From Bacteroidales bacterium (GTDB taxonomy: Bacteria; Bacteroidota; Bacteroidia; Bacteroidales; UBA932): a DNA stretch of 64,000 nt. The notes below the pieces were generated by a model. It was not told the origin of the DNA, searched no databases, and saw only the letters and a program-made list of their open reading frames with translations. The position numbers and the translations under genes were made by a program. Of the stretch, positions 8,508 to 48,358 are shown piece after piece. Numbering within the stretch: the stretch's first letter is position 1; each line of letters starts with the position of its first letter. The stretch is from NCBI GenBank assembly GCA_024401695.1, contig JAKSKN010000006.1, forward strand, positions 79,627 through 143,626, given 5' to 3'.

Positions 8508-11486
8508 CTACAATTTATTGATCTTTTCCTCTTCGCAGAACAGGCTGAATTCCTTTATCAGGACACGGCGGAGCGGAGCCCTGTCTATTTCATCACACGG
8601 GACGGAGATGCGGAAGACATTGAATGAAGGAGTGGAATCCTGAACGCCGAGGAAATTACATTCACCTTTTATCTGCGGATATTTGTTCATGATGCGTTCG
8701 AAGAACCGGCCGAATGCATTTTCCGCTTCGTCGAATGAATGCTGAGACGAAAGCTTCACATCCATTCTCACTGCCGACAGCCTGCTTGTCATATTGACCA
8801 CGCCAGAGACACCGCTGTTATAGAATATCTTGACATTGCCGTCAATGTCTTCCACCTTTGTGGTGCGTATTCCGATATTGGTCACCTTGCCGCAGAATCC
8901 GCCGATATTCACGATGTCGCCTACCTTGTAGTCTTTCTCCATTATGATTGACACACCGGCCAATATGTCAGTGATAAGGTTCTTTGCCCCCAGACCGACC
9001 ATTACGGAGAAAGCTCCCAGGGAGGCGAGAACTCCGGTTGTGTCTACTCCGAACATATAAAGTGTTACGAAAACGACACTTATGTAGCCGGCATAGCGCA
9101 ACAGCGACACGAGGAGCTGGCACACGGTTTCAGCTCCGGCATTGAGCGCGCTCTTGAGGACAGACATTATTCTGGTAAGGATGAACATCCCGAAAGCGAA
9201 GCTCAGGGTGATGACAATCATTGTAGTCAGAGAGAAGATATTGACTCCTCTCTGCCACAGGAATGACATAAGATAGCCTGATAACGTTTCACTCGGACCG
9301 GTACTCAGTCCGATGACAAGGGACAGGGAGATGAACGCCAGAATGACAATCCATATCTTTCCCATATCCCCGAGGATCCTTTGTGAAGATGTCGGAGTTT
9401 TCTTCATCTCCACATCCATTCTTTCCAGTTGGATTGCCGTCATCGATTTCCTCTCCTCCATCTCCACGCGGGCAGCTTCCTTGAACTTTTCAACCTTGCC
9501 GGGACCATAGATGAGCAATATTCCCAGGAAAACGAGCACTATGAGAAGCGTGACCGCAAAAGTGACAATACAATTTGCCGTCCTGCCCAGATACACATCC
9601 GCAAGAGGCACGAAAGACATTACGAAATATTCTCCTTTATTGCCGCTGACTTGTTTTGTCGCGACACAATACCTTGTATTCCCGACCTTGTGGAACCCCA
9701 GATAGCCATCCCTGTATGCGGCATCAGACATATTGGCAGCCACGTTGCCAAGAGTTTTTGCGGAATAGACAAGCTTGTGCCCTTCTTCCGCCGATGTCAT
9801 GATGTAATGACAGTGCCCGGATTCGGAAGCGGCATCGAAAGTATTTCTGATAGATTCCAATGTGGAATTCCATTTTGCCGGGTCAATCTTGAACCTTGTA
9901 ACGAGCATAGCATCGGAAACTTTGCCTTCCCGGCGGAGTGAGAAGGGAGCACAGACGATGAAATTATCTTCATCCATCATCTGCTCACTTGACGACACCC
10001 CGTCAATGACATTGAACAGAGCTGCGCTTGCCTCATCCTCGCGGGAGAACCCGAGGTTGGTCTGTGTCCCGCTTGTGGCGACAAGCTTTCCCTTCTTGTC
10101 AAAGACAGAGATGTCTCTGGCTGATTGCGCCTGTGCCATTCCTGCAAGCCAGGGATTGCAAATCTCCACAAGGCGCACTGTCCCATCTTTATCCTCGACT
10201 TCCTTCAGGCGGGAAGATTCCCGGCAAACGAGCAGGTTTGCCTGATGGTCTTCCAGCACGGAAGCGGTAACCTTAAGGAATGCGGCAACATCTTCGGACG
10301 CGGCATCGAGATTGTCTGACAATTTCTTGTCTATCTTGCCGAGGTCATCGGAAACCTGACGGATATTCCACTGGGAGGTCCAGATCTGGTTGCCTATCAT
10401 ATTCAGCGAATTGAGATAGAATCCGGCAACCGTGACAAAGACAATGCACACCAGAGAGAATGGGAGCAGGACCCTCGCCTTTTCCGCATCCACCGCACAG
10501 CCCTTCTTCCCGAATGGTTTTAATCCTCCGGCCCTTATCTGAAGTTTGCCCGGCTCTTCATCGATATAGTTGCAATACAACTGGATCAAGAAAATAACCA
10601 ACAGTATCGTTGCCAACAGCACAGCTAACGGACCAATCGGGACAGCACCCTCATCGGTATATGCCGCCAATATTGTGATGTCACCGAAGATATCCGACTT
10701 ATATTGGATTGTCCTGTACTTGTAGCCGTACCCCATCACTTCCGAATGTCCGGTGCTCGGTTCGCGGGTGACCGACTCGTCAAGGTTGAGTACGGATATC
10801 GGCTGGCCGGAAAAATCGGCGGCTTCGGTCTTCAACGGGCCGAAAAGAAGCGTCCCGTTGTCTATCGAAGTCACGAACAATCTTTCGTCCACCGGCCCGA
10901 ATAGGCCGCCCATATCGTCCAAGGTGTAAATCGAGGCATACTTTCCCTTGAGAACGGCTGGCATTACGAGTCTTGCGCCTTCAAAAGATACGGCAAAGAC
11001 TTTTACCGGAGTGCCATCCGGCATACAGATACGTCCGGTATTGACATATCCTTCACCGTTCATCACAAGTTCATATTCATCCGGTGAAAGGGGGCAGACA
11101 TCGGTTATCCTGCGTCCGATAGAGCCCTTGTCGGTTCCGTTGAGAACTGTTCCGTCCTTCCCTACAAGAAAGAAACCGGCTGCAGAGACTCCTGTTGCGT
11201 TAACCCTTTCGAAAGTGCGTTTCTGTCCATCGGTTGCCATCAAATATCTGATGGCGGCCAGATCGACCTGGAAATCGCGGTCATATTCCCGGATGAGAGC
11301 TTCGCGTACCTGTGACTCGGAGTCCAACTGGGCCGGAATTTCAGTAAGGGACTTGTCAACCAGACTGTTCTCCACATTGTTGTTATAAATTGTCTGGAAA
11401 ACAATCATTATTATGGCTGCGACAATGGTGCAACCAATTGAAACTACGATAGATTTGAGGTAATTGTATTTTCCCATAGTTTTCAT
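8508..11486 (-). CDS. MscS-type channel with two extracytoplasmic sensor regions
   Basis: 992 residues. Helix 10-31 leads to an extracytoplasmic region at about 33-282; helices 283-303 and 338-358 enclose a short cytoplasmic stretch; a second extracytoplasmic region spans 360-634; helix 635-660 is followed by a charged coiled segment (665-705), then helices at 710-728, 750-772 and 795-813. The pore helix VLASLGAFSVMVGLGAKN (819-836) and the beta domain (KDYKVGDIVNIGG to NVKIFYNSG) are plain MscS. Both outer regions resemble Cache/PAS-like folds (FFLVGKDGTVLNG; ISVFDKKGKLVATSG). So it looks like a channel gated or tuned by ligands as well as tension. It follows the TamB fusion gene by 27 nt. 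Confidence 0.85.
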   Translation of the reverse strand: MKTMGKYNYLKSIVVSIGCTIVAAIIMIVFQTIYNNNVENSLVDKSLTEIPAQLDSESQVREALIREYDRDFQVDLAAIRYLMATDGQKRTFERVNATGVSAAGFFLVGKDGTVLNGTDKGSIGRRITDVCPLSPDEYELVMNGEGYVNTGRICMPDGTPVKVFAVSFEGARLVMPAVLKGKYASIYTLDDMGGLFGPVDERLFVTSIDNGTLLFGPLKTEAADFSGQPISVLNLDESVTREPSTGHSEVMGYGYKYRTIQYKSDIFGDITILAAYTDEGAVPIGPLAVLLATILLVIFLIQLYCNYIDEEPGKLQIRAGGLKPFGKKGCAVDAEKARVLLPFSLVCIVFVTVAGFYLNSLNMIGNQIWTSQWNIRQVSDDLGKIDKKLSDNLDAASEDVAAFLKVTASVLEDHQANLLVCRESSRLKEVEDKDGTVRLVEICNPWLAGMAQAQSARDISVFDKKGKLVATSGTQTNLGFSREDEASAALFNVIDGVSSSEQMMDEDNFIVCAPFSLRREGKVSDAMLVTRFKIDPAKWNSTLESIRNTFDAASESGHCHYIMTSAEEGHKLVYSAKTLGNVAANMSDAAYRDGYLGFHKVGNTRYCVATKQVSGNKGEYFVMSFVPLADVYLGRTANCIVTFAVTLLIVLVFLGILLIYGPGKVEKFKEAARVEMEERKSMTAIQLERMDVEMKKTPTSSQRILGDMGKIWIVILAFISLSLVIGLSTGPSETLSGYLMSFLWQRGVNIFSLTTMIVITLSFAFGMFILTRIMSVLKSALNAGAETVCQLLVSLLRYAGYISVVFVTLYMFGVDTTGVLASLGAFSVMVGLGAKNLITDILAGVSIIMEKDYKVGDIVNIGGFCGKVTNIGIRTTKVEDIDGNVKIFYNSGVSGVVNMTSRLSAVRMDVKLSSQHSFDEAENAFGRFFERIMNKYPQIKGECNFLGVQDSTPSFNVFRISVPCDEIDRAPLRRVLIKEFSLFCEEEKINKL

Positions 11487-11513: not shown

Positions 11514-14500
11514 TCAGAACGGATAACCTATTCCGAAGTTCAGCCTCAGGCCGTCCTTCCACAAATTGGGAATGTTGTAATATCCGGCGCGCCCTGTATC
11601 ATATGGAGCGTGTATGGCGATGCCGAGGTCAAGCCGGATGACTATGGATTCATAATCCAGTCTCAATCCCACTCCGGTTCCAAGGGCAATCTGATTGAGG
11701 AAGGTTTCCGGCGCGATGTGGCTGTCATACATCTTTGTCAGATTGAAGCCCTTGAGGAATGCCTCTATGTCTTCTGCGGACAGGTAATCCTTGGGGTCTT
11801 TCTGGTTCCATACATTTCCCGCATCAACGAACAGGGCTCCGTTAAGTTTCCACACTATAGGGAAACGGAGTTCCGCGTTGAGTTCAAGTTTGATGTCCCC
11901 CGTATGGAAGATGTATGAGCTGTAATTGTCGTTGTGGAAGTTTCCCGGGCCGATGGAACGGGGGGAGAATGCCCTGATGCTGTTGGGACCGCCTATGGAG
12001 AACGCTTCCGAGAGGGGAGAGCCCACGCTGTTTCCGAAACTGATGACGGCACCGGCCATAGCCCTTGTGGCAAGTTCTAGTTTGTCGCTGAGCCTGAACC
12101 TGTTCCTGAGTTCAAGCTGCATTTTCACGAATTGGTCATAATTGACACCGAGCAAAGTCTTGTTTCTTTCGTTGAATTCCCTTCCACAGGCGGCCATAAT
12201 GCCGGAAATGAGATTGGCCGATTCCTTCAGCTGAATATCCAGAGCCGTATAGACGTTCCTTTCCTTGTCGCGGTAGTTGTTGTAGCTGAACGCATACCTT
12301 GCGGACGGAATGAACTCGTTGTTCGCAAAGAGTTTGAGAAGGTCGACGAAGCCGACGTCAGTTGCCAGTTTCTCTGATGCCCTGTCAGCAAGCACAACCG
12401 AAAGATAGAGGGGAGAGAAACTGTGGCTGACATACTTGTTCTGGCGTAGGCCGTAATCCAGGCCTCCATAAAGTTTGTGCAAGCCATAGTCACCGGATAC
12501 ATTCTGGTTCAGATAGCCGAGGCGGTAGGATGTCCTACCCATATACTTCTTCCCCCAATCTCCAAGTTGCACATAAGGAAAACTGAGAGAAAAATCGGCA
12601 CCGAACTGGTATGTGTCGTTTCTGGAAGGATCTTTCGATTTTTTGTTGCCAAGGTTCCAGTAATATGCTCCATTGATCTTTGCCGTGAATACATCGCCCC
12701 TGCCGAAAAGATTGTTCTTTGTGATTGAAACGGCGGCATCGGGCCCCAACTGATTGTTGCTTCTTTCTACAAGATTGGCTTCAATGCCCAAATCAACCGA
12801 CCTGTCAAGACTGTCGCGCTGTCTGTCGATTGTTTTGTTGTAAAGTACACCGACACCGCTCTTGATGAGTTCCCCCTCCACAACGTTGTTATAGTCTTTC
12901 ATACTGAACAACCTCGCCCGGAACGTACCGGCTGTGTCCAGCTTGTATTCCGCTGACAGGTTGTTGAGGAATGAAGCGGAATTCTTGTTGACCTCGGCAT
13001 TGTCCGACACGCTTCCCCCGATTTTCACGTTAAGCCTGTCGTTGAAAAAGCTCTTGGAGACATTGATGGTATAATCAGTGGTCTCAATCCCTTTTCCGTG
13101 CTTCCCGCTGGCAACACCGAAATCAAGACTGACCTTGTTCCCCAATTTGTTGGCGGTGGCCGCGTTCAACTTTGACTGGACAATGCTCGACAGGGCATAT
13201 CCGTCCATCTGAGCCGCTTCGTTGCTTTCGGAGGCATACATTCCTGTTGCCAGAAGTACGGCGGCAAGTCCTTCCCTGTCTTCTTCCGGCAGTTCCGCCA
13301 GCTCTTTCTGAATTTCCTTGTCCTTGGGCGCGTCAAGATAGAATCCTATGTCAAGTTTCTTGAGCGTGCCTCCGACTTTTACTCCGGTGATGAAATCCAC
13401 CATCCTTGAGACTTCTCCAACGGGTTTGTAGGTAGCCTTTGCACCCTGGGAGGCGGAAACGGCAAGTTCCGTGTCGTCAATGGCTCCGTTGAAGCTTATC
13501 CGGCTGCCCTTGTCCACGGCGAACGGCATCATAGGATACAGTTTGGGTGAGAAGAATATCCGGCCCTCAGGAATATCCAGACTGCCGCCGAGGTTGAGGC
13601 CAGTTTTGGGGTTGAACCCGACCTTTACCGTGCCGGAAGGACTGACCTGAGCAAGGTTCTTTTCGTCGATAGGGTAGGTGATATCCGTCTCGGGCAGGAT
13701 GCTGACGTCGATGTTGGCGAGCAGGCTGTCCACAGGACCGGTAATGCCGCCTTCCAGCGCGGTGAGGAGTTTTCCGTAAACGGGAATAGGGCCGCCCTGA
13801 GGAAGTTTCACGGGCTCGAAGCAGTCGGATTTGACTGATACGTCAAGAAGCATTGCATTGAGGTCCAGTCCACCGTCCAGACTTACGGAAGTGCTGTCCG
13901 CACCGATAAGTGAAAGTCCGTTCAGATTTATCCTGTTGTCCTCCATCGTGATTTCCCGCTCTGAGAGACATAGTCTGACATCGTACGGACGATATGATGC
14001 CGCCACGTCCACCGGAGTGACTCCGGCGAAAATTCTCATCCTGTCGGGCAGTCCGGAGGCTATGGCCCGGGCCCTGATTCTTCCCTGAATGTCCAGCTCC
14101 TCCGGAAGAGTGACGAACTGTTTTGCCAGTTCGGCCGGGATGTCGTCCAGATTGGCGTTCGCCACAAAATGATTCGGGTTTTCACCGTCCGGGCGAAGGT
14201 TGAACAGGACATTCCTGTCACCTATGTTCTTGCCGTCATATACTAGTCCGGCAAGTTTGAGATCTCCGTCCAGTTTGAGGTCATCCCCGTTGCGGGACAG
14301 GACAGCCGCCAGATCAACTCCCGAGTCTATCCCATGAACGGACATCAGGCCGTCCTTTATTTCAGAGTTGAACTTGAGAGTTGCATCCATACTGCCTCCG
14401 GACAGGCCTGCCACGAGGGCGGCGTCCATTGCCGGAAGCCTGTATTCCCCGTTCAGGGCCGGTGTTTCCAGGGATGCTTTCAAGTTTCTGGATGCTCCTG

Positions 14501-16139
14501 AGGAGCGCAGAACGGCCGTGAATTTCTTGAGGTCAAACCCATTCTTCTGAAGCATACCTCTCAGCGGATTGTCCTGCAGAACGGTCAGGTCAGCGTTAAC
14601 TTCCGGGAGGGCGGCAATCAAGGAATCAAGTCCGGCGAGAGTCTTCGGTGCACCGGAGAAAGACGGAAGAAGCGACGGGATTTCCAGAGCGTGGGCTGGA
14701 ACATTGGCAGAAATGGAAATTCCCGGCATCCTCACATCTGCTTCGCTCAGTGCTTCCCGGGTTTTGAGATTAACCTTCATCCCGCTGATTTCCAGCGTAT
14801 CCGAAGGAATGCGGGCATTTATTGAATCCAATTGGGCATCCAAGTCAATTCCGGGAAATTTTCCGAGGAAATCGCTGACCGCAAAACGGCTGTCAAGCAT
14901 CAGCGAGGCGGTGACGGAAGAGTCCGCATAGTGGACCGGGGCGGATATCTTGCCGCTGACGGAACCGGACCTGAGAGAGGCGAACAGTTTGGCTCCGGAG
15001 ACATCGATGCCGTTGAATCTGCAACTGTCAAGCTTTACAGAGAGATCTGCGGTCATTTTCCTGTCAGCCGGATTTATGCCGCCCCCTGATGCGTTGACGC
15101 GGCCCGCCACAATCAGTTCATTTTCCGGCATCTTCAGGATTTTGGCAACATCTGTCCTCTGAATATCCAGACTGGCGTTGAAAATTTCGTCATCAATGTC
15201 ATAATCGGCATCAAGTGAGAACGGGGCACCGGCAAAACTGCCCCTGCCCACAGTTGTTACACGCATCTGTTCAAGATCAAGTCTGGTACCGCACAGCTGG
15301 GCTTCAGCCTCCATCTCGGGAACGCTGGCGTACAGGACTTCAGACGAAATTATGGAATTCCCGAGATCCACAACGGCGTCTCCGGCCAGACTGCCTACCG
15401 TAAGTCCGAAATCTCCAATACCGAAGAATGTATCCGAAATATCCAGAGTCCGCACGGTATAGCAGGATTTTCCCAAATCGACAAGGGCACCGGTCTTTGC
15501 TTTTCCTACATCCAGATTGAGGCCCATAGGCTCCAGACGGAACTCTACATTCCGGAGAGTGATGTCCAAAAGGTCTATGGCCAAAGCCAAAGAACTGCTG
15601 TCGGGAGGACTAACCTCCACGGAGTTCCGGTCACTTATCAGTTCAAGCGTGAGGGCGGCATCCTCAAGAACGGCATCCTTTATCGGGAATGTCATCTCCT
15701 TCAAACCGAAAGGCTCCACTCCGGCCGACAGCTTGCCGACTTTCCCGTCTATTTTCAACGAAGGTATCAGATCCCCCGTATGGGCGGTCAGGTTGCCGAC
15801 TCCCAAATGTCTGACAGCCACGGAATCCGGTAAAGCATCTATGCGCAGACGCGCGTCCAGACGCCCCACGAATGCCAGAGTGTCACCCTGACCGTCACCG
15901 GCAAAGACATTTTCAAGAAGAATATTGAAGGGAGGTCTTACTGAGAAATGTCCCACGGAAGCCTCGATGCCGATCTTGTCTGACAAGATACGTGCGGCTG
16001 TTGTAGCCGCCTTCTGCTGCACAGACGGTATGGTTAATGCTATCAGTATTCCTACAACAATTACAACAGGCACGCCTATCAGGCAACATGTTGTAATCAA
16101 TAAGACCTTCAGCCATTTGCGTTTCTTTTTTACCGACAT
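11514..16139 (-). CDS. TamB fused to an Omp85/TamA-type barrel (single polypeptide)
   Basis: 1541 residues. A basic start and membrane anchor (about 12-35) open a TamB/AsmA-like protein. Residues 36-800 are repetitive beta strands and about 800-1106 the TamB C-terminal domain (GGSLDIPEGRIFF; AVLLATGMY; LDTAGTFRARLF; GVLYNKTIDR). From about 1107 to 1541 the chain is an Omp85 barrel: AAVSITKNNLFGRGDVF, then the lid-loop motif GGPNSIRAFSPRSIGPG (1387-1391 is SIRAF), FVDAGNVW and a final LRLNFGIGYPF. POTRA domains, normally in front of such a barrel, are absent. Normally TamB (inner-membrane anchored, periplasm-spanning lipid conduit) and TamA/TamL are separate proteins. Here one chain would span inner membrane, periplasm and outer membrane. 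Confidence 0.88.
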   Translation of the reverse strand: MSVKKKRKWLKVLLITTCCLIGVPVVIVVGILIALTIPSVQQKAATTAARILSDKIGIEASVGHFSVRPPFNILLENVFAGDGQGDTLAFVGRLDARLRIDALPDSVAVRHLGVGNLTAHTGDLIPSLKIDGKVGKLSAGVEPFGLKEMTFPIKDAVLEDAALTLELISDRNSVEVSPPDSSSLALAIDLLDITLRNVEFRLEPMGLNLDVGKAKTGALVDLGKSCYTVRTLDISDTFFGIGDFGLTVGSLAGDAVVDLGNSIISSEVLYASVPEMEAEAQLCGTRLDLEQMRVTTVGRGSFAGAPFSLDADYDIDDEIFNASLDIQRTDVAKILKMPENELIVAGRVNASGGGINPADRKMTADLSVKLDSCRFNGIDVSGAKLFASLRSGSVSGKISAPVHYADSSVTASLMLDSRFAVSDFLGKFPGIDLDAQLDSINARIPSDTLEISGMKVNLKTREALSEADVRMPGISISANVPAHALEIPSLLPSFSGAPKTLAGLDSLIAALPEVNADLTVLQDNPLRGMLQKNGFDLKKFTAVLRSSGASRNLKASLETPALNGEYRLPAMDAALVAGLSGGSMDATLKFNSEIKDGLMSVHGIDSGVDLAAVLSRNGDDLKLDGDLKLAGLVYDGKNIGDRNVLFNLRPDGENPNHFVANANLDDIPAELAKQFVTLPEELDIQGRIRARAIASGLPDRMRIFAGVTPVDVAASYRPYDVRLCLSEREITMEDNRINLNGLSLIGADSTSVSLDGGLDLNAMLLDVSVKSDCFEPVKLPQGGPIPVYGKLLTALEGGITGPVDSLLANIDVSILPETDITYPIDEKNLAQVSPSGTVKVGFNPKTGLNLGGSLDIPEGRIFFSPKLYPMMPFAVDKGSRISFNGAIDDTELAVSASQGAKATYKPVGEVSRMVDFITGVKVGGTLKKLDIGFYLDAPKDKEIQKELAELPEEDREGLAAVLLATGMYASESNEAAQMDGYALSSIVQSKLNAATANKLGNKVSLDFGVASGKHGKGIETTDYTINVSKSFFNDRLNVKIGGSVSDNAEVNKNSASFLNNLSAEYKLDTAGTFRARLFSMKDYNNVVEGELIKSGVGVLYNKTIDRQRDSLDRSVDLGIEANLVERSNNQLGPDAAVSITKNNLFGRGDVFTAKINGAYYWNLGNKKSKDPSRNDTYQFGADFSLSFPYVQLGDWGKKYMGRTSYRLGYLNQNVSGDYGLHKLYGGLDYGLRQNKYVSHSFSPLYLSVVLADRASEKLATDVGFVDLLKLFANNEFIPSARYAFSYNNYRDKERNVYTALDIQLKESANLISGIMAACGREFNERNKTLLGVNYDQFVKMQLELRNRFRLSDKLELATRAMAGAVISFGNSVGSPLSEAFSIGGPNSIRAFSPRSIGPGNFHNDNYSSYIFHTGDIKLELNAELRFPIVWKLNGALFVDAGNVWNQKDPKDYLSAEDIEAFLKGFNLTKMYDSHIAPETFLNQIALGTGVGLRLDYESIVIRLDLGIAIHAPYDTGRAGYYNIPNLWKDGLRLNFGIGYPF

Positions 16140-16155
16140 CGGCCCCTACTTGATA

Positions 16156-16821
16156 TTAGAATTTTTTCACCAGACCTATTCCGTAGTCGGCAAGGCCCTG
16201 TGCAATACCGGCAAATCCTCCCTTGTGAAGATCCCAAGTGCTTGTCGTTACAACCTTTTCAGGATAGTCAGCCCTTGTACCGTACCAACCCAGAGATATG
16301 AATCCGAGATGAAGTTGTAATGCGAGTTTCTCATTAAGGTCAATGTTTACGACCGGAAGAATCTGGAATCCGTATTCCGTCTGTGTGCCCCATTCTTGAG
16401 AGCCTGTCTTCGGCTTGTTTACATTGTAATACTGACCTATGAAAGCATTGGCTTCGGCCCATACGCTTACAACTTTCCAATTCAGCAACTTGTATCCGAA
16501 GAATGGAGATACCGACCAACCGACCGCCCTGTTCACGTTGATGGTCTGGTCTTTTTTCTCAGATTCATAGATAACTCCGTTAGTCAGACGGCCGAAAGCG
16601 AAACCGATCCGCCCTCCGACTTGCATTTTTTCACCTATGTTCCAATACACTTTCGGCTTCAGATTGACCAGATAGGCATGTTCCTTATTGTCAGTAGTAC
16701 CGGATGAATAATCGGTATGCTCATTGGCGAAATTTATGCTGAACTGTCCTCCGAAGTGGAATTGAGCGTTTGCAACAGAAACTGAAAATAGAAGCACCAA
16801 CAAAAGAATAAGTTTTTTCAT
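16156..16821 (-). CDS. Small outer-membrane beta-barrel protein, 221 aa
   Basis: The signal peptide MKKLILLLVLLFSVSVANA is followed by a Gln start. Alternating strands (FHFGGQFSINFA; LKPKVYWNIGEKMQVGGRIGFAFG; VSPFFGYKLLNWKVVSVWAEANAFIG; FQILPVVNIDLNEKLALQLHLG) are those of the OmpA-like/PorT-like eight-stranded barrels frequent in Bacteroidetes. It lies 16 nt before the TamB-Omp85 gene in the same direction, so it may be co-transcribed and may even be a client of that machinery. No binding motif is recognised. Confidence 0.75.
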   Translation of the reverse strand: MKKLILLLVLLFSVSVANAQFHFGGQFSINFANEHTDYSSGTTDNKEHAYLVNLKPKVYWNIGEKMQVGGRIGFAFGRLTNGVIYESEKKDQTINVNRAVGWSVSPFFGYKLLNWKVVSVWAEANAFIGQYYNVNKPKTGSQEWGTQTEYGFQILPVVNIDLNEKLALQLHLGFISLGWYGTRADYPEKVVTTSTWDLHKGGFAGIAQGLADYGIGLVKKF

Positions 16822-16854: not shown

Positions 16855-17427
16855 CTATTCTTTTCTACCGCCGAACTGGAAAGACACTCCGAAACTCACA
16901 AGATTGGTGAAGGCGCGGTAGCTGCTGGTGCTGGACAGGTCAAGGAGTCCGCGTTTGTAGTTGACGAATAATCCAAGCCCCAGAGGGAATGTATATCCGA
17001 CCTCAGCATTGATGCCGAAATCGTTGCTGCTGAAATCTCCGTCCTGTTTGATGGCACGGCCATAGTAGACTCCGAAGAAAGCATCAAAACTGCCGAATTG
17101 GCCATCCGAGCGGTATCCTACGGACAGAGGTATCTGTATCCATTGGGTTGTCATCTTTTCGTTGAGATCCTTGATGGTGACGTTGTTCATAACATAATTT
17201 ACGCCGGGTTCAAGGAAGAAGACATTGTTCAGAAGGTTGATGTCATACATCACTCCGCCTGAGAATCCGAATCCTGATTTGAGTGAACGTAAAGTGGAGG
17301 CAGGGTTCTTTGAATTGGCATTATTGCTGAATCCGCCAAAATTTCCTCCAACCTCGATTTTGAGTTGAGCAGATGCAGATATCGCTGCAAGCAGAGCAAC
17401 TGCGATGGTAACAAATAGTTTTTTCAT
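16855..17427 (-). CDS. PorT-like outer-membrane beta-barrel protein, 190 aa
   Basis: The signal peptide MKKLFVTIAVALLAAISASAQ is followed by LKIEVGGNFGGFSNNAN and then SGFGFSGGVMYDINLLNNVFFLEPGVNYVM, the standard opening of PF13568 (PorT-like) barrels; it ends VSFGVSFQFGGRKE. I start at ATG 17427 rather than an upstream GTG. It is the gene before the 221-aa barrel. The family includes general porin-like and secretion-associated proteins, and the exact role is not predictable. Confidence 0.8.
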   Translation of the reverse strand: MKKLFVTIAVALLAAISASAQLKIEVGGNFGGFSNNANSKNPASTLRSLKSGFGFSGGVMYDINLLNNVFFLEPGVNYVMNNVTIKDLNEKMTTQWIQIPLSVGYRSDGQFGSFDAFFGVYYGRAIKQDGDFSSNDFGINAEVGYTFPLGLGLFVNYKRGLLDLSSTSSYRAFTNLVSFGVSFQFGGRKE

Positions 17428-17445
17428 AATCACTGATTTTAATTT

Positions 17446-46987: not shown

Positions 46988-47004
46988 CCGCCGAATTTAC
47001 ACAA

Positions 47005-47056
47005 TCGCGAGGACAGATTTGAATGCTTGCAACCTCGTCTAAAAAATGCTAAAATG
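47005..47056 (+). ncRNA. SAM-II-like riboswitch in the metK leader
   Basis: P1 is CGAGG (47008-47012) with CCTCG (47033-47037). The loop carries GATTTG and GCTTGCAA and the 3' part has TAAAAAATGCTAAA, the order and wording of the SAM-II (metA) aptamer (AUUU, UUGCAA, then UAAA-AUGCUAAA). The 3' conserved strand GCTAAA runs straight into the metK ATG (47054), so the SAM-bound pseudoknot would mask the start codon. This matches negative feedback of SAM on its own synthetase. The assignment is by motif only. Confidence 0.7.
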
Positions 47057-48358
47057 AACTATCTCTTTACATCGGAGTCAGTCTCCGAAGGTCATCCCGA
47101 CAAGGTCGCTGACCAGATTTCAGACGCCATCCTTGATGAATTCCTCCGCCAGGACCAGGAGGCGAAAGTCGCCTGTGAAACATTCTGCACCACGGGCCTG
47201 GTGATCGTCGGCGGCGAGGTCAAGAGCGACAACGCCTACGTCGACATCGAGGACACCGTACGCAGGACCATCGCCAGGATCGGCTACACAAAATCGGACT
47301 ATCATTTCGATTCCCTCTCCTGCGGGGTTATGTCAACCATCCACGAGCAGAGCGCCGACATCAACCGCGGCGTAGTACGCGGGGAGCCTCTTGAGCAGGG
47401 CGCCGGCGACCAGGGAATGATGTTCGGCTATGCCTGCCGCGACACCGAGGAATATATGCCTCTGGCACTCTCCCTGTCACACAAGCTGCTTCTGGTTCTC
47501 GCCGACATCCGACACAACGAGCCCGGGCTTATGCCATACCTGCGTCCCGACGCAAAATCACAGTTCACGGTAGAGTTCTCCGGGAAGCACCAGCCTCTGC
47601 GGGTCCACACGATCGTGGTCAGCACGCAGCACGATGAGTTCGACACCGACGAAGCTATGCACGACCGCATCGAGCGGGACATCCGCAGCATCGTCATTCC
47701 ACGGCTGATAGCATCCCTCCCGGCGGCGACCGCAGCCCTCTTCGACGACAAGTTCATCCTTCACGTCAACCCTACGGGCAAATTCGTCATCGGCGGACCT
47801 GCCGGAGACACCGGCCTCACAGGGCGCAAGATAATAGTTGACACATACGGCGGACGCGGCGCACACGGTGGCGGCGCATTCTCCGGAAAAGACCCTTCAA
47901 AAGTCGACCGTTCAGCCGCCTACGCAGCACGCTATATCGCGAAGAACCTGGTCGCAGCAGGTATCGCGGACGAATGTCTCGTCCAGCTCGCCTATGCCAT
48001 CGGCGTTGCCGAACCGGTCTCAATCTTCGTGGACACCTATGGTTCTGCACACGTCCAGGCCCCTGCAGGCTCCGAGATATCCGACCTCCGCGGCGAAGCC
48101 ACCGATTCATACATCGCATCAAAGATCCGCGAGACTTTCGACCTCCGCCCTGCGGCGATCATCGAAAGATTCGGCCTCAAGAACCCTATCTACTCGCCTT
48201 GTGCCGCTTATGGCCATATGGGACGCAAGCCGTATGTCCAGGCCGTGAAGATGAAGCAGGCCGACGGCACCTGGTCCGAAAAGGACGTCCAGTTCTTCGG
48301 ATGGGAACTTCTGGATTCCGTTGACACTATCCGCAAAGCATTTGGAATCAAGGCATAA
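47054..48358 (+). CDS. metK: S-adenosylmethionine synthetase
   Basis: 434 residues from ATG 47054 ([25 protein letters not shown], shown here in part as [11 protein letters not shown]). Further MetK motifs: [48 protein letters not shown] and [16 protein letters not shown]. It makes SAM from methionine and ATP. The longer open frame upstream is the riboswitch region, not protein. The stop overlaps the smpB start by one base. Confidence 0.97.

Follow-up and report, generated by a model that had tools for sequence, protein, structure and literature searches.

A conserved TamB-Omp85 fusion forms a POTRA-less single-chain protein in Bacteroidales

Can TamB and its outer-membrane partner barrel be made as one polypeptide, and what becomes of the domains that dock the two? 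This question is raised by a gene in the window, a 64,000-nucleotide stretch of a contig from a Bacteroidales genome. A first-pass annotation, made from the letters alone, had read the gene as a TamB-like N-terminal part joined to an Omp85 barrel in one 1541-residue chain. In the ORF listing, the gene is a single ATG-started frame with no internal stops (Table 1), and TamB, Omp85 and TamL profiles all match within it, TamB extending to about residue 1104 and the barrel following from residue 1114. The reading of one chain with this order of parts thus holds. Papers are cited below by PMC number, and each statement so cited refers to excerpts of the paper.

Table 1. Features of the fusion gene and its upstream neighbour, with positions in the window
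Feature	Residues	Positions	Strand	Basis or remark
Small outer-membrane barrel gene, candidate partner or client		16156..16821	-	directly upstream of fusion
TamB-Omp85 fusion gene	1541 aa	11514..16139	-	ORF and profile matches
N-terminal transmembrane anchor (predicted)	about 10-37	16029..16112	-	hydropathy
TamB conduit	40-1002	13134..16022	-	PF04357 at 807-1101 and TamB2 homology
Site without coupling-loop segment	820-834	13638..13682	-	length comparison and E. coli TamB mapping
TamB C-terminal amphipathic strands (predicted)	1003-1104	12828..13133	-	alternating hydropathy
Last TamB strand	1094-1104	12828..12860	-	
Linker	1105-1113 (9 residues)	12801..12827	-	in place of TamL2 signal peptide and POTRAs
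TamL-type Omp85 barrel from strand 1	1114-1541	11517..12800	-	profile matches
Barrel strand 1	1114-1124	12768..12800	-	mapped via TamL to E. coli TamA
GGPNSIRAF lid-loop motif	1383-1391	11967..11993	-	

The C-terminal part belongs to the Omp85 superfamily. Pfam PF01103 matched residues 1143-1541 over its full length (model 1-325 of 325, E 1.2e-24) with 87.9 bits against a cut-off of 24. The NCBIfam TamL model NF052279 matched residues 1113-1541 (model 334-747, E 2.1e-106), but the fusion scored 357.1 / 358.9 bits, under the 400-bit cut-off that defines a whole TamL protein. None of 18 fusions tested passed this cut-off, and all 18 matched the model only from position 266-339 onward. The SIRAF motif noticed in the first pass lies in the barrel as part of a lid loop in which G1383, G1384 and R1389 are invariant across a 75-row alignment. 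A phmmer search of PDB sequences with the fusion gave nothing stronger than weak matches to BamA/TamA barrels.

The N-terminal part matched the TamB profile PF04357 when its 1106 residues were scanned alone (residues 807-1101, E 8e-20; 71.9 bits against a cut-off of 22.4; profile 126-378 of 381), and a whole-genome profile search gave 74.1 bits against the same cut-off for TamB in the fused frame. A whole-protein Pfam scan (E up to 0.1) reported Omp85 and neither TamB nor POTRA, and just 8 of 18 carriers have a fused frame that scores above the PF04357 cut-off. With frames read stop to stop, a 19-residue mean hydropathy of at least 1.6 near the N-terminus points to a TamB-type anchor in 85 of 87 fusions; the exceptions are L089, where a contig end cuts the anchor, and L132, where the frame is broken upstream. 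Downstream of the anchor, no 19-mer reached 1.9. As for a lipidation signal of the TamL kind, the N-terminus of the fusion is this long hydrophobic anchor, and the barrel comes directly after the linker. Peaks of hydropathy alternation starting at 1003, 1020, 1033, 1060, 1070 and 1093 suggest that six TamB strands precede the linker; since alternation also peaks at 970, 987 and 1044, the number six is one reading of the profile.

POTRA domains, which the first-pass annotation had reported missing, were matched (PF07244, E 0.01) in the fused frame of none of seven carrier genomes, whereas other frames of all seven gave POTRA matches, the TamL frame falling under the cut-off in G000, the source genome, and in G091. 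The separate TamL of the source genome carries POTRAs, with 41.8 bits in hmmscan and 20.1 bits in the whole-genome search. The junction between the two parts lies where it had been placed, at 12800-12850, with the last TamB strand, the linker and barrel strand 1 in direct succession.

We then asked whether the junction is real. The first-pass annotation had raised the possibility of a frame change or stop at the junction, and of relatives that always encode two proteins; among 86 relative loci, the junction was in frame in every one, and many relatives encode the same fusion. A single open frame spans the matched length in 84 of the 86, the others being L132, whose frame breaks near residue 218-230, and L082, whose match ends at 1492. 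With the window, these loci make 87 rows that fall into 81 clusters at 97% identity and include two identical pairs (L028/L138 and L034/L100). In seven pairs, the TamB part had dN/dS values of 0.09-0.30 and the barrel had 0.02-0.14, which indicates purifying selection on both halves; with only 31 residues, the junction by itself does not allow such a judgement. An artefact of assembly or sequencing, or a decaying gene, might be suspected from the facts that the named carriers are metagenome-assembled or uncultured, that the frames were judged from assemblies, and that 2 of the 86 loci have a frame fault away from the junction. However, because the same junction is shared by all 86 loci, which come from many separate projects, and dN/dS is far below 1 in both halves, this explanation is extremely unlikely, and we rejected it.

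The fusion is sparsely distributed. It was found in 3 of 199 genomes of the family sample (three genera; G000, G091 and G080) and in 5 of 393 genomes of the order sample (G000, G414, G481, G298 and G440), the source genome included in both. Among 395 genomes of the phylum sample, only the window's own passed E 1e-120, and we therefore rejected a wide spread across the phylum. A scan of a species-genome collection with two peptide patterns from the first three fusions, a procedure that finds near relatives and gives no frequency, yielded 155 relatives, the best 80 of which had matches that start no later than residue 70 and end at 1540 or 1541. Among the matches listed, record titles named Bacteroidales, Bacteroidia, Bacteroidaceae and Paludibacteraceae, many of them from rumen, reticulum or horse faeces. 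The fusion is thus a genuine, conserved and thinly spread single-chain TAM.

To place the fusion among the other Omp85 and TamB genes of its host, we searched the whole source genome (71 contigs, 97% complete) with profiles. Five Omp85 matches were obtained; they include a BamA-like frame of 862 aa on C12 that adjoins an apparent Skp gene (labels by eye), a separate TamL of 719 aa on C7 (L030), above the TamL cut-off, and a patatin-like match on C44 (by eye), under the cut-off. A 459-aa Omp85 barrel protein without a POTRA match is encoded on C4 (L004:1063-2442, plus strand), preceded by an acyltransferase-like gene (by eye). Two TamB domains were found, one in the fusion and one in a separate 1529-aa TamB (L031) on C5; against PDB sequences, phmmer gave this canonical TamB one chance match. 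The Omp85, TamB and TamL searches of this genome returned no separate TamB2 or TamL2. Of 18 carrier genomes, all but G595 have a full TamL above the cut-off (17 of 18), and all but G091, G595 and G596 have a separate TamB (15 of 18); these assemblies are incomplete, and a gene missing from one of them is weak evidence of loss. The idea that the fusion is the sole TAM was therefore rejected: the separate TamL that the first pass had proposed looking for exists, and the fusion is a second TAM of the cell. G594 has two TamL frames of equal score and length (C2:19222-21357 and C26:6823-8958), a duplication or a redundant contig.

A second TAM has been described in F. johnsoniae, where TamL and TamB are essential and a further pair, TamB2-TamL2 (Fjoh_1899/Fjoh_1900), is dispensable, has overlapping genes, occurs in 20 of 30 species studied and has no function known in the excerpts consulted (PMC12045153). 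We took 20 two-gene loci, from 20 of the 48 order genomes with non-fusion matches. In all 20, TamB2 precedes TamL2 on the same strand; 19 of them have overlapping frames or a gap of at most 90 bases, the gap in L141 being about 850 bases. The TamB frames are 1490-1627 aa (one cut by a contig end) and the TamL frames 767-933 aa, counted from first possible starts. One TamL2 of 933 aa (L157:7034-9835, plus strand, in G407) is unusually long, with a 504-residue block ahead of its barrel; G551 has an open frame of like length (936).

Profiles of the fusion scored TamB2 at 197-370 bits, against at most 93.5 for the 12 canonical TamB examined, and TamL2 at 241-304 bits, against 114-166 for 10 canonical TamL. 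When the fusion was aligned with 19 TamB2 and TamL2 pairs, a block of 341-504 residues was absent from it at residue 1109. The block starts 4-51 residues before the TamB2 end in 17 pairs and at the TamL2 start in two (L142 and L149), and it runs 334-453 residues into TamL2, beyond the TamL2 signal peptide and the region that in TamL contains the POTRAs. By this alignment, the fusion lacks the signal peptide and POTRAs of TamL2. Its nearest two-gene kin are TamB2-TamL2 pairs rather than canonical TamL and TamB, and a TamB2-TamL2 operon is its likely source. No frame long enough for a fusion that retains POTRAs was seen in the match lists of the 199 family and 393 order genomes. In a quick tree of 25 of the 87 fusion barrels, 20 TamL2, 10 canonical TamL and one BamA-like barrel, the fusions formed one branch (SH-aLRT 100), canonical TamL another (100) and TamL2 a group with 75; the root is uncertain, BamA being a very long branch. 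The three carriers of the window's family stood at three places in this tree, a scatter that transfer between lineages or repeated loss could produce. One of them, the fusion of G091 (L028:6559-11346, plus strand), falls in the rumen lineage and not in that of the window.

How, then, would the two parts be held together without POTRAs? In E. coli, the coupling loop of TamB (residues 998-1012) touches POTRA 1 and 2 of TamA, and TamB residues 892-994 and 1153-1167 are further POTRA contacts (PMC12800296); POTRA deletions in TamA impair or kill, and TamB fails to bind TamA without POTRA 1 (PMC12800296/PMC11014939). At residues 820-834, all 87 fusions have 15 residues, compared with 71-80 in all 20 TamB2. 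E. coli TamB 998-1012 falls into the missing segment by MAFFT and by hhalign to TamB2, the latter a weak mapping (probability 79.5, E 1.5e-5); with hhalign to canonical TamB, the alignment stopped short of the coupling loop. The segment is kept in 12 of 12 canonical TamB, all from fusion carriers. By these alignments, both sides of the docking contact are partly absent from the fusion. The first-pass proposal that fusion takes the place of POTRA docking gains support here, since loss of the coupling-loop segment is consistent with lost docking. It is not specific proof, because four more TamB sites shrank as well (at five of six sites measured, lengths in the 87 fusions and 20 TamB2 do not overlap) and because the E. 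coli POTRAs have contacts with further parts of TamB.

The geometry of the junction can be compared with the E. coli complex, in which TamA strand 1 pairs with the last TamB strand (1251-1259) and cross-links join T267 to E1258 and E269 to Q1256 (PMC12800296). By our own arithmetic, the index sums of the two cross-links are equal, so that the strands run antiparallel and the TamB C-terminus lies beside the start of strand 1. Nine residues lie between the last TamB strand of the fusion and barrel strand 1, which was placed via TamL since hhalign of the single E. coli TamA against the fusion profile gave nothing useful. A turn of that length could give a hairpin paired in the same way, as we infer from these positions. 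By contrast, a model of the F. johnsoniae complex is a hybrid of 22 strands in which the last strand of the barrel, not the first, is the partner of TamB (PMC12045153). Extended E. coli TamB measures 246 A (PMC11014939), and by simple proportion to its 1259 aa, a conduit of about 1000 residues would reach roughly 200 A.

The neighbourhood of the gene was also compared. The small barrel gene upstream ends 16 bases before the fusion and matches Pfam OMP_b-brl only under the cut-off. Of the 87 fusion loci, 46 have a homologue as the immediate upstream neighbour, as do 44 of the 79 for which 900 or more upstream bases are available; no match was seen in the 20 two-gene loci, a few of which have little upstream sequence. 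Further upstream, a second small outer-membrane barrel gene (16855-17433, minus strand, 192 aa) matches PF13505 above the cut-off. Downstream by 27 bases, 8508-11486 (minus strand) encodes a 992-aa protein whose MscS domain (PF00924, 836-893) is confined to the region near the C-terminus and whose N-terminal part has more than 700 residues without assignment; it was rejected as a conserved neighbour, having no tblastn match in the other 86 fusion loci. Elsewhere in the window, a SAM-II riboswitch was detected at 47003-47062 (plus strand, 59.3 bits).

Taken together, we favour, with moderate confidence, a single-chain second TAM in which the contact between TamB and barrel strand 1 has become permanent, with loss of both the POTRAs and the coupling-loop segment, and in which the work done is probably on phospholipid or outer-membrane proteins. 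Anchored in the inner membrane by its N-terminal helix, the chain would bridge the periplasm with its TamB groove; a short turn would connect the TamB C-terminal strands to the first strand of an Omp85 barrel embedded in the outer membrane. In a two-protein TAM, the contact between the last TamB strand and TamA strand 1 makes and breaks, with POTRAs and coupling loop helping to hold the partners; the covalent linkage may be the permanent form of this contact. The chain would then move phospholipid or assemble outer-membrane proteins beside the ordinary TamL and TamB, with the small barrel encoded upstream as a candidate client. That it spans both membranes and fixes a 1:1 ratio, as the first-pass annotation had proposed, would follow from the single chain.

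Other readings differ in what the junction does. It is possible, though doubtful, that six TamB and sixteen Omp85 strands form an enlarged, permanent hybrid barrel in which the covalent hairpin keeps the lateral gate open; if so, one molecule would provide a continuous path for lipid or protein from inner to outer membrane. Alternatively, the fusion may serve as a tether that fixes proximity and ratio, while the Omp85 barrel stays closed with 16 strands and the TamB C-terminal domain remains periplasmic. Linker length ranges from 3 to 22 residues among the 87 fusions, so a tight geometry is perhaps not needed, and E. coli TamAB is also found in a non-hybrid state (PMC12800296). Yet by mean modal share, the TamB C-terminal strands (0.73) and strand 1 (0.78) are conserved at about the level of the barrel (0.77) and above the conduit (0.62), and we regard a mere tether as rather unlikely.

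The low conservation of the linker (0.60) relative to its flanks would also suit a chain that is cut after export into TamB and a POTRA-less barrel acting apart. Against such cleavage, which seems to us decidedly improbable, stand the in-frame junction of all 86 loci and 15 of the 87 linker rows, in which no common cleavage motif was seen by eye. The small barrel, adjacent in about half of the fusion loci and unmatched in the two-gene loci, could instead mean that the fusion is a dedicated assembly device for that protein and has left general TAM work; but the neighbour is missing from the other half and adjacency does not prove function, making this unlikely. The permanent contact of a single-chain TAM is our preferred reading.

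Precedents exist for parts of this build. The Omp85 superfamily is known to include barrels that lack POTRAs and carry other N-terminal parts, and the WD40 type has been called reminiscent of a BamA-BamB fusion, a barrel joined to its partner; no TamB-bearing subfamily appears in the excerpts of that survey (PMC4104836). Among the matches listed in a search of open-access titles and abstract starts, no TamB-barrel fusion was described, and the words 'fusion' and 'fused' are absent from the open-access TAM papers that were text-searched. The parts are known; no account of the joined build without POTRAs appeared in the literature searched. It touches on how TamB hands over cargo at the outer membrane and on the need for POTRAs, in that a joined conduit and barrel without POTRAs or docking segment is kept under selection.

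The canonical TamL (L030) and TamB (L031) of the same genome are homologous to the two parts, but they are separate genes on different contigs; this TamL has POTRAs and a lipobox-like start (by eye), and this TamB keeps the coupling-loop segment. The TamB2-TamL2 pair of Bacteroidota resembles the fusion in gene order, in giving the top profile scores for both halves, and in the succession of TamB C-terminal strands and a TamL-type barrel. It differs in being two proteins: TamB2, of about 1490-1627 aa in our two-gene loci, keeps the coupling-loop segment, and TamL2 is predicted to be a lipoprotein with three POTRAs (PMC12045153). The E. coli TamA-TamB hybrid barrel likewise places the last TamB strand beside strand 1, as predicted here for the fusion, at a 1:1 ratio; by contrast, its chains are separate, the contact is seen in only part of the particles, and docking proceeds through POTRA 1-3, including the coupling loop (PMC12800296). 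The fusion would offer a natural single-chain target for structures of the contact between TamB and barrel, and a way to test if the hybrid barrel is the working state.
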